From Luteolibacter sp. SL250 (GTDB lineage: Bacteria; Verrucomicrobiota; Verrucomicrobiia; Verrucomicrobiales; Akkermansiaceae): a stretch of DNA of 64,000 nt. Under the pieces are notes generated by a model. That model saw only the letters and a program-made list of their open reading frames with translations. It did no database searches and had not been told where the DNA came from. Shown in pieces: positions 38,235 to 55,713 of this stretch; within the stretch, counting starts at the first letter, position 1, and each line of letters opens with the position of its first letter. The translations under genes and the position numbers were made by a program. The stretch spans positions 3,534,001-3,598,000 of the forward strand of contig NZ_CP113054.1 in NCBI RefSeq assembly GCF_026625605.1, written 5' to 3'.

Positions 38235-38343
38235 GGGTAGCGGAAGTCGTGAGACTTCCGGCTGGGGGGAAGTCTGTCCACGCCCGGAGCTTGTTTCTTG
38301 ATGGACGTCTTCCCAGCCGAATCTCTCACGAGGTTCGCTACCC
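38235..38343. repeat. REP-like inverted pair downstream of thrS
   Basis: Left arm: GTAG-CG followed by the hairpin GGAAGTC-GTGA-GACTTCC (38242-38259). Right arm: the reverse-oriented hairpin GAATCTC-TCAC-GAGGTTC (38319-38336) then CGCTAC. The two arms are inverted copies about 33 bases long with a spacer of about 45. One arm has a G-T wobble, so pairing is kept while sequence has drifted. It is the same family as the array at 53.2-54.2 kb. Confidence 0.75.
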
Positions 38344-41903: not shown

Positions 41904-42062
41904 GTAGCGGCGTGGCTGCGCCACGACGGTTGTGTGGACCAGCCTTCTTCCTGCAGCGCCAGATTACAGAGCGGATGGCAAAGACGGGTCGAAAGAAGAA
42001 ACCGGACCCGGAAGGAGAGAGGCAAGTCCACCCGGCCGGAATGGCGCAGCCATTCCGCTACC
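41904..42062. repeat. REP-like inverted pair upstream of infC
   Basis: Left arm: GTAGCG followed by the hairpin CGTGGC-TGC-GCCACG (41911-41925). Right arm: the hairpin GGAATGGCGCAGCCATTCC (42038-42056) followed by CGCTAC, in reverse orientation. The loop TGC and the stem-closing GGC/GCC match the other class of hairpins in the 53-kb array, while the stem sequence differs. The rest of the 41839-42376 stretch shows nothing else except the infC ribosome-binding site. Confidence 0.75.
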
Positions 42063-51559: not shown

Positions 51560-51568
51560 ATGACTGGA

Positions 51569-51740
51569 GGCCAGGGACGCCATTCCATGGCGTCAGGCGG
51601 GGAGTATCCACGATCATCCCATGACTCCGATCTGACATGGAGCCGGTCCTGCGTTTCCATGGCGTTCGCTTTTCGATTACCACTATCGGAAGGTTCTGCC
51701 AGCCTTCCCCCACCGGACGCCATGGAATGGCATCCCTGCC
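51569..51740. repeat. Inverted hairpin pair in the gap after the dehydrogenase
   Basis: The left arm holds the palindrome GACGCCAT-TCC-ATGGCGTC (51576-51594) and the right arm its reverse-oriented partner (around 51716-51734) with a G-T wobble. The two arms are about 33 bases long and inverted. They lack the GTAG head of the other repeats, so this is a separate repeat family. The element fills most of the 51560-51838 gap. Confidence 0.6.
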
Positions 51741-51838
51741 AGCACGCCGGACTTCCAGGAAGTCCCTGCCCCGCCCGGATATTTTCACGGAAATCCCATC
51801 GTATTTTCACGGGCCGCCGCTATGGTGCCACCAACCGC

Positions 51839-53182
51839 ATGGACACACCTTCCAAGGACAGCAACCGCCAATGGTGGCAGGGACAGGCGAAACGGACCGC
51901 CCGCCGCATCAATCTGGCGTGGTGGCTGGAAACCCTGGCCACCCCTCTGATCGTCGGCGGACTGGCCGGTGCCGCCGGCCTGCTGGTCATCCGCAACCGT
52001 GAGATCGAGCTTCCCCCGGCGATGCTGGCCGGGGTGATCGGCGGTGCGGTCCTGCTGATCGGCCTGATCTGCTGGGTGGTCGCGGCACGGCGGTTCGAAA
52101 AGCCGGAGCGGTCGCTGGTGCGCATCGAGGCGACCATGGAGATGAAGAACGCGCTTTCAGCGGCAACGGCGGGAGTCGCCCCGTGGCCCGCCCCGGTGCC
52201 GGAGGTGGACCCGGGCGTGCGCTGGCACTGGCCGCGGCTGGTCGTTCCGCCACTGGCCGCGCTGGCGCTGCTCGCCGCCGGGCTTTTCATTCCCGTTTCC
52301 TCCGCGAAGACCCCCACCACCCCTCCGGAACAACCACAGGCGTGGAAGCAGCTCGACTCCTCCCTGGAGCACCTGTCGAAGGAGGAACTGGTGGATGAGA
52401 AATACCTGGAGGAAACCCGGAAGAAACTGGAGGAGCTGAAAGCCCAGAAGGAGGAGCAATGGTTCAGCCACTCTTCCCTGGAGGCGACGGACTCCCTGAA
52501 GAAGGAACACCGTTCCGAAATGGACCGGGTGGAGCAGGAACTGGAACGGGCGGAGAAAGCCCTGGAGTCCCTGGAAAAGAACGGTGGCGCCAACCAGGCG
52601 GAGAAGGAACGCCAGCTCAACGAATTCCAGCAGGCCATGCAGGGCCTCCAGAACGGCGCCATGAAGCCGAACCCCGAGTTGCTGGAACAACTGAAGCAAA
52701 TGGACCCGAACAAGCTCGGCCAGCTCAGCAAGGAGCAGATGCAGCAGCTCCGGGAGAACCTGAAAAAGAATGCCAACGGCATGAAAAAGGGCCAGGGCGA
52801 CGGCCAGGGGGATGACTGGTCGGACGAGTTGCTCGCCGACGAGAATGGTGATGGCGAGGGCAAGGGACCCGGTGACAAGCCCGGCAACGGACGCGGCAAA
52901 GGTGGCGTGAACCGCGGCCCCGGCCATGATCCGGGCGTTCTCGGAAATGAGAAGGACGGTCTGGAAACCGGTGATCTCACCGCCGTGGAGTCCAGGGACC
53001 TGTCGAATGCCCTGCCCGGTGACCTCCTCCAGTTGCAGGACGGCGAGCATGACGTGGACAAGAGCGGCTCGAGGATCACCCAAGGGGGCAACACCGACGC
53101 CACGGGAGCCGGTGGTGACCGGGTCTGGAAAGACAGCCTGGATCCCGGCGAGCAGAAGACGCTGAAGAAGTTCTTCGAGTGA
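51839..53182 (+). CDS. Membrane protein with a long charged coiled-coil domain
   Basis: The start at ATG 51839 gives 447 residues. Three transmembrane helices are near the N-terminus (LIVGGLAGAAGLLVI, MLAGVIGGAVLLIGLICWVV, PLAALALLAAGLFIPVS). A long coiled coil follows (LEETRKKLEELKAQKEEQWF, EMDRVEQELERAEKALESLE), then a Q/N-rich and glycine-rich stretch (GQGDGQGDDWSD, GKGPGDKPGNGRGKGG). It resembles membrane proteins found beside MoxR-type ATPase/DUF58 clusters in PVC bacteria, but no such cluster is here. It probably faces the periplasm; the function is unknown. Confidence 0.7.
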   Translation: MDTPSKDSNRQWWQGQAKRTARRINLAWWLETLATPLIVGGLAGAAGLLVIRNREIELPPAMLAGVIGGAVLLIGLICWVVAARRFEKPERSLVRIEATMEMKNALSAATAGVAPWPAPVPEVDPGVRWHWPRLVVPPLAALALLAAGLFIPVSSAKTPTTPPEQPQAWKQLDSSLEHLSKEELVDEKYLEETRKKLEELKAQKEEQWFSHSSLEATDSLKKEHRSEMDRVEQELERAEKALESLEKNGGANQAEKERQLNEFQQAMQGLQNGAMKPNPELLEQLKQMDPNKLGQLSKEQMQQLRENLKKNANGMKKGQGDGQGDDWSDELLADENGDGEGKGPGDKPGNGRGKGGVNRGPGHDPGVLGNEKDGLETGDLTAVESRDLSNALPGDLLQLQDGEHDVDKSGSRITQGGNTDATGAGGDRVWKDSLDPGEQKTLKKFFE

Positions 53183-53189
53183 GGGCAGC

Positions 53190-54200
53190 CGGGGCGTAGC
53201 GAAGCTCATGAGAGCTTCGGCGGGGTGCATGGCTGCCGCCAGCCGGTCCCCGCCACGCTTCCGACGCCATCCTCCCCAAACCGGGACCGTAGGGATGATG
53301 GTGGATTTCCCCAGCCGGAATGGCGCAGCCATTCCGCTACCCCTGCGGGCGGATCCCGGGCGTAGCGAAGTTCGTGAGAGCTTCGGCGGGGTGCATGTCT
53401 GTAGCGTGATGGCTGCGCCATCACGGTGGGGTGGATCTCTGCCGCCAGCCGATCCCCGCCACGCCTCCGACCCCATCCCCCCAAACCGGGACCGTAGGGA
53501 AGATGGTGGATTTCCCCAGCCGGAATGGCGCAGCCATTCCGCTACCCCTGCGGGCGGATCCCGGACGTAGCGAAGCTCGTGAGAGCTTCGGCGGGGTGCA
53601 TGTCTGTAGCGTGATGGCTGCGCCATCACGGCGGGGTGGATCTCTGCCGCCAGCCGATGCCACCACACGTCCGACCCCATCCTCCCCAAACCGGGACCGT
53701 AGGGAAGATGGTGGATTCCCCCAGCCGGAATGGCGCAGCCATTCCCGCTACCCCTGCGGGCTGATCCCGGACGTAGCGAAGCTCGTGAGAGCTTCGGCGG
53801 GGTGGATGTCTGCGAACAATCCGACGGCGGTCCCCGATGGATTTCCCCCAGCCGGAAGGCCTACGGCTTCGCTCCCCGGAGGCGGATTCTCCGTAGCGTG
53901 ATGGCTGCGCCATTACGGTGGGGCGGATCTCTGCCGCCAGCCGGTCCCACTACGCCACCGACCCCATCCTCCCCAAACCGGGACCGTAGGGATGATGGTG
54001 GATTTCCCCAGCCGGAATGGCGCAGCCATTCCGCTACCCCTGCGGGCGGATCCCGGACGTAGCGAAGCTTCGTGAGAGTTCCGGCGGGGTGCATGTCTGC
54101 TGAGAAACCGGCTCCGGCTTCCCCTTGGCCTTCCCCACAGCCGGATCTCTCACGAGATCCGTTACCCGTGCGGGTCCTCCGTAGCCGGAAGTCCCACGGT
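53190..54200. repeat. Tandem array of REP/BIME-like hairpin elements
   Basis: The 1120-base gene-free stretch carries four copies of a unit with near-identical sequence; the anchor CCGGGACCGT recurs at 53281, 53486, 53691 and 53978 (spacing 205, 205 and 287). Each unit contains hairpins headed by GTAGCG: one with a GTGA loop (GAAGCTC-GTGA-GAGCTTC at 53201, 53367, 53572 and 53778), one with a TGC loop (TGATGGC-TGC-GCCATCA at 53407 and 53613, with a wobble version at 53900), and a reverse-oriented GGAATGG...CCATTCC (53317, 53522, 53737 and 54014). The fourth unit has an extra 82 bases, and a GGATCTC-TCAC-GAGATCC hairpin at 54143-54160 closes the array. The pieces read as open frames but contain only repeat sequence. 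Confidence 0.85.
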
Positions 54201-54303
54201 CTCCCCTAAGACAGGAAAAATGCGGAATAGATCGGCATTTCGGTAGATCCACGGCATCGCGTGAACCCTCGAAGCTTTTTTTTTCGTGCCATCCCCGGTC
54301 CTC

Positions 54304-55713
54304 ATGCCAAATTCCGGCGTCCCCGCGATGCCCGAAGGCCCCACCGAAGAAACCCTGCTCCTTGTCGATCCCGATCACGACTTCCTTGATTGGGCCACCA
54401 AACACTTGACCGCCCAGAACCTGCGGATCCTCCGCTGTGACAATGCGGCGAACGCGTTGAAAGTGGTGGAGAAAACCGAGATCAGCGTGGTGGTTGCGGC
54501 CCTTTCCCTGCAACCGTTCGACGGCCTGGACCTCCTCGGCCGCATCATCCAGCACAGCCCGCAGACGCTGGTCATCCTGACCGCGGGATTCCCCACCACC
54601 AGCCAGATCATCGAGGCGACCCAGCATGGCGCGCACGATGTACTGAGAAAGGAGTCCCTGCCCTTCGAACTGCGGCAGGTGGTGGAGTCCGCGCTCCAGA
54701 TCCATGAAGACCGCCGCTCCGTGACGCACCATGAGACGGAAGGTCCGACGGTGGACGGCCGGGTGAAGATCATCGGCGTTTCCCGCGCCCTGCAGGATGT
54801 TTTCAAGCTCGTCGGACGGGTCGCCCGCTCGGACGCACCGGTCCTCATCGCCGGGGAAAGCGGCACCGGCAAGGAACTGGTCGCCAAGTCCGTGCATGAG
54901 TACAGCCCGCGCCGCCAGAAGGAGATGATCACCATCAACTGCGGCGCCATCCCGGAGAACCTGCTGGAGAGCGAGCTGTTCGGCCATGAAAAGGGGTCGT
55001 TTACGGGAGCGATCGCCCGCCGCGCCGGCCGGTTCGAGCAGGCGGACGGCGGCACGCTGTTTCTCGATGAGATCGGCGACATGCCTCTTTCCATCCAGGT
55101 GAAGCTGCTGCGGGTGCTGCAGGACGGCTCGTTTTCGCGGGTGGGTGCGAATGAAACGATCACCACGGATGTGAGGATCGTGGCGGCGACACACAAGAAC
55201 TTGGCGGCGGAAGTGGCCGCCGGAAGGTTCCGCGAAGACCTCTACTACCGGCTCAACGTGGTCGAGCTGCGGATCCCGCCGCTGCGGGAACGTCCGGAAG
55301 ACATCCCCCTGCTGGCGGAGTTCTTCCTCCAGCGGATCACGAAAAAGAACGGCATGGCACGCATCCGGATCTCCCCGGAGGCGGTTTCCACGCTCCAGAA
55401 CCATGTCTGGCCGGGGAATGTCCGGGAACTGGAGAACACGATGGCCCGGGCCTGCGCGCTGGCTTCATCGAACATCCTCCTTCCGGCGGACATCCCGCTT
55501 GCTTCCGCCCCCGGGCGCACCTTCGCCAAGCTGGGGGAGATGCTGGACCACCTCATCAACGCCGCTCCGGGCGGGGACAATGTCATCGAGTGGATCTCCC
55601 GTGAACTCGCGGGCCGCTCGATCGAGCGCTCCAACGGGGATCTGAAGCAGGCGTCGATCTCGCTGGGAATCGAACCTGCGGAGCTGAAGAAACTCCTGGC
55701 CGGAAGAGAGTGA
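54304..55713 (+). CDS. Sigma-54 dependent response regulator with a non-standard receiver
   Basis: Residues 16-135 form a receiver domain (DPDHD at 22-26, T93 and K116 kept), but the phospho-acceptor position is alanine (VVVAALSLQPFDGL, A66), so it is probably not phosphorylated. Residues 155-390 form the AAA+ domain with Walker A GESGTGKE (184-191), the sigma-54 contact loop GSFTGA, Walker B LFLDEIGDM, and RVLQDGSFSRVG. The C-terminal helix-turn-helix (NGDLKQASISLGIEPAELKK) is a Fis-like DNA-binding helix. It would activate sigma-54 promoters by ATP hydrolysis. The start is ATG 54304; the array lies directly upstream. Confidence 0.9.
   Translation: MPNSGVPAMPEGPTEETLLLVDPDHDFLDWATKHLTAQNLRILRCDNAANALKVVEKTEISVVVAALSLQPFDGLDLLGRIIQHSPQTLVILTAGFPTTSQIIEATQHGAHDVLRKESLPFELRQVVESALQIHEDRRSVTHHETEGPTVDGRVKIIGVSRALQDVFKLVGRVARSDAPVLIAGESGTGKELVAKSVHEYSPRRQKEMITINCGAIPENLLESELFGHEKGSFTGAIARRAGRFEQADGGTLFLDEIGDMPLSIQVKLLRVLQDGSFSRVGANETITTDVRIVAATHKNLAAEVAAGRFREDLYYRLNVVELRIPPLRERPEDIPLLAEFFLQRITKKNGMARIRISPEAVSTLQNHVWPGNVRELENTMARACALASSNILLPADIPLASAPGRTFAKLGEMLDHLINAAPGGDNVIEWISRELAGRSIERSNGDLKQASISLGIEPAELKKLLAGRE

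Follow-up and report, generated by a model that had tools for sequence, protein, structure and literature searches.

The array at positions 53196-54165 of the window (the whole stretch of 64,000 nucleotides of the Luteolibacter sp. SL250 chromosome that was analysed) is a tandem array of GTAG-headed hairpins belonging to two loop classes, TGC and GTGA. It is very probably (rough probability 0.87) a hybrid BIME composed of two GTAG REPIN families with paralogous RAYTs, in which class-specific copying by the RAYTs was followed by tandem growth. The analysis gives direct views of the anatomy of the array, the genome-wide families, the RAYT genes with their flanks, the matching of classes in most genomes and the condition of the orthologous site in related species. 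Most of what is known of REP elements and RAYTs comes from Proteobacteria.

Anatomy of the array

The array sits between two ORFs that are both encoded on the plus strand, one ending at 53182 and the next starting at 54286. Its parts, its neighbours and two REPINs found elsewhere in the window are the following:

38237-38341, complete GTGA REPIN apart from the array (covariance model)
41904-42061, TGC REPIN apart from the array (covariance model)
51560-53182, plus strand, upstream neighbour ORF, 540 aa from the first start, the true start probably being later (aligned in the sister species)
53196-53227, plus strand, GTGA-class REP with the loop ATGA, left end of the array, 14 bp past the stop of the upstream ORF (covariance model)
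53308-53340, minus strand, TGC-class REP whose left partner is deleted (covariance model)
53362-53393, plus strand, GTGA-class REP, left arm only (covariance model)
53401-53545, TGC REPIN with REPs at 53401-53433 (plus) and 53513-53545 (minus), heads outward and 144 bp apart (covariance model)
53567-53598, plus strand, GTGA-class REP, left arm only (covariance model)
53606-53751, TGC REPIN with REPs at 53606-53638 (plus) and 53718-53751 (minus, one extra base) (reading and covariance model)
53773-53804, plus strand, GTGA-class REP (covariance model)
53845-53875, minus strand, decayed right-hand partner of the REP at 53773, loop and head changed (reading; under the model thresholds)
53893-54037, TGC REPIN with REPs at 53893-53925 (plus) and 54005-54037 (minus) (covariance model)
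54059-54165, GTGA REPIN with REPs at 54059-54091 (plus, one extra base) and 54134-54165 (minus, head GTAA), orthologous to the lone REPIN in the sister species
54286-55713, plus strand, downstream neighbour ORF, 475 aa (ORF list)
53558-53590 and 53764-53796, minus strand, weak matches to Acido-Lenti-1, RF01687 (Rfam)

The downstream ORF is presumably an NtrC-type response regulator, judging by its motifs. On the plus strand the heads of the array follow the order G+T-G+T+T-G+T+T-G+T+T-G+ and then a mutated G- (G, GTGA class; T, TGC class), and the REPs are regularly spaced, alternate in orientation and are repeated as modules, as is characteristic of BIMEs. The initial annotation had described tandem units of about 205 bp with an anchor sequence at 53281, 53486, 53691 and 53978. 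All four positions proved correct, the anchor falling within the inner spacer of the TGC pair, and Tandem Repeats Finder, run on the whole window, returned a single array at 53218-53812 with a period of 205, 2.9 copies, 94% matches and a score of 1048. A repeat search of the window found a 143-nt family of four copies at spacings of 205, 205 and 287 together with a second family of 183 nt and three copies (97% and 63% similarity to the reference). Also correct in that annotation were the GTAG head and the division into two loop classes; within the array, occurrence in both orientations holds for the TGC class but less cleanly for the GTGA class, which lies on the plus strand except at 54134-54165 and in the decayed copy.

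Each 205-bp unit consists of a TGC REPIN and the left arm of a GTGA REPIN, with a 22-bp junction between them; this arm takes up the 39 bp to the next head, and the units are 97% alike. The 287-bp spacing corresponds to a unit of the same type that retains most of the GTGA REPIN, with its right arm decayed. A fuller composite with a period of 292 bp (144 + 22 + 104 + 22) is located at 3.893 Mb, and a copy there is identical over 41 nt to the leftmost GTGA arm of the array with its unusual ATGA loop.

Hairpin classes and their pairing

The GTAG head is followed by a 9-bp stem with a TGC loop in one class and an 8-bp stem with a GTGA loop in the other, and in both the stem begins with CG, ends with CGG and leads into a G-rich tail. 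Among the distinct aligned sequences, which were chosen for a GTAG-like head, GTAG is found in 21 of 21 TGC and 22 of 23 GTGA sequences, and a G stands two bases ahead of the head in 101 of 123 distinct contexts in the 800 kb read. Stems had been noted to vary between copies while remaining paired. This is borne out by standard pairs in 94.7% of the TGC and 98.4% of the GTGA stem cells (21 and 23 distinct sequences, respectively) and by covariation scores that beat all 500 shuffles in each class, results which are not to be read as probabilities because the aligned sequences are related copies. Cells changed on both sides number 18 for TGC and 31 for GTGA against shuffled means of 6.9 and 10.4; the count of GTGA pairs with a change on both sides did not rise above the shuffles, of which 452 of 500 reach its value. 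Pairing breaks once the partner columns are slid, and the conserved stem pairing by which REPs are recognised is present in both classes.

Covariance models built from these 21 TGC and 23 GTGA sequences were used for a census of the 4.9-Mb genome at E<=0.001, which gave 98 TGC copies (107 at E<=1) and at least 150 GTGA copies, the best matches having E values of about 1e-12 for the whole genome. The genome-wide count proposed by the initial annotation therefore revealed about 250 copies around the chromosome and not a single array. A consensus scan detected 133 hairpins in 400 kb of this genome and 41 in 300 kb of the sister species, and the same scan of the reversed sequences detected 0 and 0; the hairpins are thus no product of chance.

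Among the matches listed, 248 elements form 110 clusters, and 188 of them sit in outward-headed pairs less than 400 bp apart. These 94 neighbours are of a single class in 91 cases, where label shuffles gave a mean of 48.9 and a maximum of 67 in 10,000; in the five clusters of the 110 that mix both classes, 12 of 15 outward-headed pairs are likewise single-class. The head-to-head span is 139-147 bp in 29 of 36 TGC pairs, and in the 55 GTGA pairs it is 100-107 bp (37 pairs), 125-128 bp (10) or 140-142 bp (4). Two inverted REPs at a fixed, class-typical spacing thus recur as a unit, which is the defining arrangement of a REPIN.

In 800 kb annotated with a crude gene caller, 127 of 146 hairpin midpoints lie outside predicted genes, where 14.3% of bases are intergenic, and 37 of 47 clusters are intergenic. 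Divergent spacers are the rarest location: they contain 3 of the 37 intergenic clusters, compared with a share of 61 among the 246 spacers of at least 100 bp. The region 3.74-3.99 Mb, about 5% of the chromosome, holds 87 of the 150 GTGA and 25 of the 98 TGC elements listed and carries both the GTGA and the TGC RAYT. Predicted coding density is lower in this REP-dense region, at 0.75-0.77 in 3.88-3.98 Mb (crude caller), and much of 3.70-3.93 Mb is without alignment to the part of the sister genome read.

Identical 5' stems are absent from the same-class REPINs read (0 of 70, namely 0/54 here and 0/16 in the sister), a value reached in one of 5000 shuffles for both genomes together and in 613 of 5000, not significant, for the sister alone. 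The mean difference between GTGA arms is 2.56 against 1.81 in shuffled pairs, above all shuffles, and that between TGC arms is 1.82 against 1.52, which is not significant (807/5000). One arm ends in CTC and the other in GTC in 40 of 45 distinct GTGA pairs, and the GTGA arm difference beyond CTC/GTC is not significant (391/5000). Inherited left and right arm types account for most of the deficit of identical stems, and a founder effect may lie behind the arm difference. In a DNA model that leaves out the loop cost of inter-arm pairing, pairing between the real arms exceeds the two hairpins by 7.1 (GTGA) and 13.4 (TGC) kcal/mol, and with made-up identical arms the excess is 27.6 and 29.4 kcal/mol. 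Genome-wide, among the matches listed, 12 of 32 pairs of facing heads have a separation of exactly 22 bp; in the 800 kb read, the same separation is found in 11 of the 24 cases that lie within 45 bp, and by eye the junction sequences fall into about five groups. It is conceivable, if doubtful, that the arms are kept different so that each folds on itself into a form that the RAYT can cut and no long hairpin arises, the 22-bp junction being the product of a joining reaction. If true, such an arm rule would offer a physical basis for the preference for heterodimers, which PMC3733652 describes as lacking an obvious explanation.

RAYT genes and their relatives

The NCBIfam model REP_Tyr_transpos (NF047646) matches six places in the genome. 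Two RAYT homologues have cognate flanks, one encoded at 3792127-3792696 on the plus strand (190 aa) with TGC REPs on both sides and one at 3976026-3976604 on the minus strand (193 aa) with GTGA REPs on both sides; the search for a RAYT gene that had been suggested at the outset was therefore productive. The two proteins are paralogues with 56% identity over 183 residues. Both retain the HxH motif (MPDHGH) and the YI..NP motif (LYI..NP), at which they align with 4er8 (TnpArep), the one PDB sequence matched by a profile of the two RAYTs (E 1.3e-4). The HUH motif and tyrosine of IS200/IS605-type transposases are accordingly present, with a putative assignment of the catalytic tyrosine. NF047646 scores the two cognate RAYTs at 52.7 and 47.2, below its 80-bit cut-off, which two other genes of the genome exceed; the TGC RAYT falls just below the Pfam cut-off (21.4 against 23) and the GTGA RAYT is absent from the Pfam search results at E<=0.001. 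Given these scores the term RAYT is used here in the sense of a homologue, on the strength of the motifs, the flanks and the match to 4er8.

Four further RAYT-like genes (566068-566394, 157818-158105, 3700275-3700526 and 3739569-3739967) each adjoin a different palindrome, three with GGAG-type heads and one a long double palindrome, which suggests that the genome contains more REP or TIR families. An ORF upstream of the TGC RAYT (positions 25-816 of the extracted locus) resembles by eye a phage terminase large subunit, and this RAYT may therefore sit at a prophage remnant.

Searching 145 genomes of the family with the two-protein RAYT profile at E<=1e-20 turned up relatives in 7, the present genome included, and 23 further congeners searched at E<=1e-15 added one. 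A named collection contains 14 loci that encode relatives, and every one of these comes from a record whose title names Verrucomicrobia or one of its families. A GTAG scan found hairpins flanking 16 of 23 RAYT loci, with the loop classes GTGA, TGC, GAA, GGA and GCCA; the remaining loci, together with a distant one, were labelled as being without cognate flanks. In a tree of 22 of the 23 rows, from which the distant locus was left out, three TGC-flanked RAYTs group together with moderate support (81/83), the GAA-flanked and GCCA-flanked RAYTs pair with each other, and the GTGA-flanked ones occur in several places.

Class matching was assessed in 37 genomes probed with both the RAYT profile and the REP models, and the REP class agrees with the RAYT class in 33 of them. 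Both classes are found in the present genome (98 TGC, at least 150 GTGA) and in the sister species G141 (65 TGC and 146 GTGA among the matches listed). Two genomes whose RAYTs have GTGA flanks contain GTGA copies only (G127, 0 TGC and 34 GTGA; G076, 0 TGC and 64 GTGA), G125 combines a TGC-flanked RAYT with 41 TGC matches and two weak matches to the GTGA model, and 28 of the 37 genomes, many of them drafts, have neither RAYT nor REP class. Four genomes depart from this agreement. G039 (64 TGC, 9 GTGA model matches) and G079 (40 TGC, 0 GTGA) encode a RAYT relative without adjoining GTAG hairpins, G161 has 0 TGC and 9 GTGA-model matches with no RAYT found in a genome that is 78% complete, and G158 has a RAYT relative but no REPs, nor any perfect hairpin of at least 8 bp in the RAYT flanks. 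On reading, G039 and G079, which belong to another genus, contain dozens of true TGC REPs nearly identical to those of SL250; these are either orphan REPs or served by an undetected RAYT.

The orthologous site and the origin of the array

The downstream protein was found in all nine congeners queried. In the closest species compared, G141, in which this protein is 95% identical, the spacer contains one GTGA REPIN with heads 105 bp apart, whose inside and right arm can be aligned to the array's right end; the comparison of copy number with a relative, as advised in the initial annotation, thus sets a single REPIN against the array. In the eight other congeners, the 1.5 kb in front of the downstream gene was found free of hairpins of either class; BLASTN identifies the upstream gene in four of these but not in the other four, and absence at the very same site is thus established for four. 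By parsimony the site would have passed from empty to one REPIN to the array, with loss elsewhere being possible.

The alignment with the sister shows expansion at the array site. Among the REP clusters mapped by both flanks (17 of 47 here, 9 of 21 in the sister) none exposed an empty site whose ends were clean and exact, nor was there a clean insertion at the four sites besides the array that were aligned in detail with this one species. At 3.505 Mb a complete GTGA REPIN is present here, and the sister (contig C1 of G141, near 391.2 kb) has one fused hairpin and is 78 bp shorter there, a difference consistent with loss of the sequence between the two loops through a deletion from arm to arm. 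A TGC REPIN is present in both genomes at 3.490 Mb, and the junctions at 3.943 and 3.637 Mb are not clean.

Three points are inferred, namely that RAYTs cut and copy the elements, in what order the events took place, and that the array lengthened by recombination. Each RAYT would recognise the hairpins of its own class in single-stranded DNA, and the RAYTs would gradually have copied REPINs into intergenic sites. The common ancestor with the sister species would have carried a single GTGA REPIN at the site, which TGC REPINs would have joined later and in the SL250 lineage only. The 205-bp unit would then have multiplied, probably by unequal recombination between repeats, which best explains multiplication of the unit since its copies are nearly identical. 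With a single REPIN in the sister and none in the other congeners, the hybrid BIME is likely to have grown at one ancestral REPIN. REP mobility and unequal recombination had been offered as alternative origins, and both routes seem to act, the former in the spread of REPINs and the latter in the growth of the tandem unit. TnpAREP enzymes cut single-stranded REP DNA near the hairpin at CT and use GTAG, and those of group 3 read the hairpin loop, according to the portion of PMC8266576 drawn upon. Judging from sequence, the RAYTs belong to the same superfamily as the TnpAREP of E. coli and S. maltophilia (PMC8266576; 4er8), and the short and perfect hairpins resemble the description of group 3 REPs. 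As loop and stem differ between the classes and head and tail are shared, recognition via the loop and upper stem would explain the class-faithful pairing.

It could be argued that the array arose solely by tandem duplication and gene conversion of old repeats, with the RAYTs playing no current part in placing copies. The likeness of the 205-bp units is in keeping with this, the 41-nt identity of the leftmost arm with the copy at 3.893 Mb is what conversion between loci would give, and no clean new insertion was found in the sites aligned with the sister. This account is nevertheless unlikely, as it leaves unexplained the roughly 110 separate clusters, the class-faithful pairing and the agreement of REP and RAYT classes across genomes, and it can stand alongside the hybrid BIME reading as regards the lengthening step only. 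A lower probability still is given to selection for a host role, in which the array would end or shield the upstream transcript or bind a nucleoid protein or gyrase. Such roles have been proposed for enterobacterial REPs (PMC3733652, as far as consulted), the array begins 14 bp behind a stop codon between two genes of the same direction, and most copies are intergenic and rarest in divergent spacers; however, the sister has one REPIN where SL250 has five-fold units and the eight other congeners have none upstream of the same gene, and the array is therefore dispensable for the gene pair.

That the hairpins represent a structured RNA family is highly improbable. In Rfam, GTGA hairpins match Acido-Lenti-1 twice but weakly (22.9 bits, E 0.016), below the gathering score of 37 bits, and the hairpins occur paired and in both orientations in about 110 clusters; RF01687 may itself be REP-like. 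CRISPR arrays and integron attC sites were set aside, the repeats being paired GTAG hairpins near RAYT genes. Neither a lack of RAYT genes, nor confinement to one array, nor a lack of conserved structure was found, and the REP/BIME interpretation first given to this stretch is supported.

The hybrid BIME of SL250 shares many traits with known systems, each of which is compared here through parts of the published accounts. A GTAG REP super-family has been described that includes the verrucomicrobium Opitutus terrae, with family GTAG-20 and others (PMC3733652, Di Nocera et al. 2013). Like the present elements, it has a GTAG head, a perfect stem of 8-9 bp and a loop of 3-4 nt, sub-families set apart by complementary stem changes, mainly head-head dimers and tandem groups, RAYT genes with REP flanks and a preference for heterodimers. 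The GTAG-20 family of O. terrae mostly has a GTGG head, whereas GTAG dominates here; the comparison with the 24 GTAG families was made by text and not by consensus sequences, and the SL250 REPs could be one of them. Hybrid BIMEs containing REPs of two different RAYTs, palindromes kept by complementary changes and, there, agreement of RAYT and REP trees are reported for Stenotrophomonas (PMC2817692, Nunvar et al. 2010). In the part of that report consulted, RAYTs meeting its criteria are confined to Gammaproteobacteria, whereas two close paralogues are found here in a verrucomicrobium. The REPINs of Pseudomonas fluorescens SBW25 are likewise doublets of a fixed, class-specific span, with one class beside each RAYT, alternating tandem arrays of two classes (GI-GIII) and doublets that collapse into a single long palindrome (PMC3116915, Bertels and Rainey 2011), but the sequences differ, as do the spans (105 and 145 bp here) and the period (205, 287 or 292 bp here against 184 bp).

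The suggestion that the family was undescribed holds in that literature searches for it in verrucomicrobia returned only PMC3733652 as relevant and not the family itself; it does not hold for GTAG REPs in the phylum, given those of O. terrae in the part of that paper seen. GTAG REPs in Verrucomicrobia, heterodimer preference, hybrid BIMEs, coevolution of RAYTs and REPs and two-class tandem arrays are all already in print, and it is the example itself that is new. A single verrucomicrobial genome combines two paralogous RAYTs, an abundant REPIN class for each, mixed arrays and a sister species with an earlier state of the site, and so offers a compact natural case for the questions of which part of the hairpin a RAYT recognises and how BIMEs grow.
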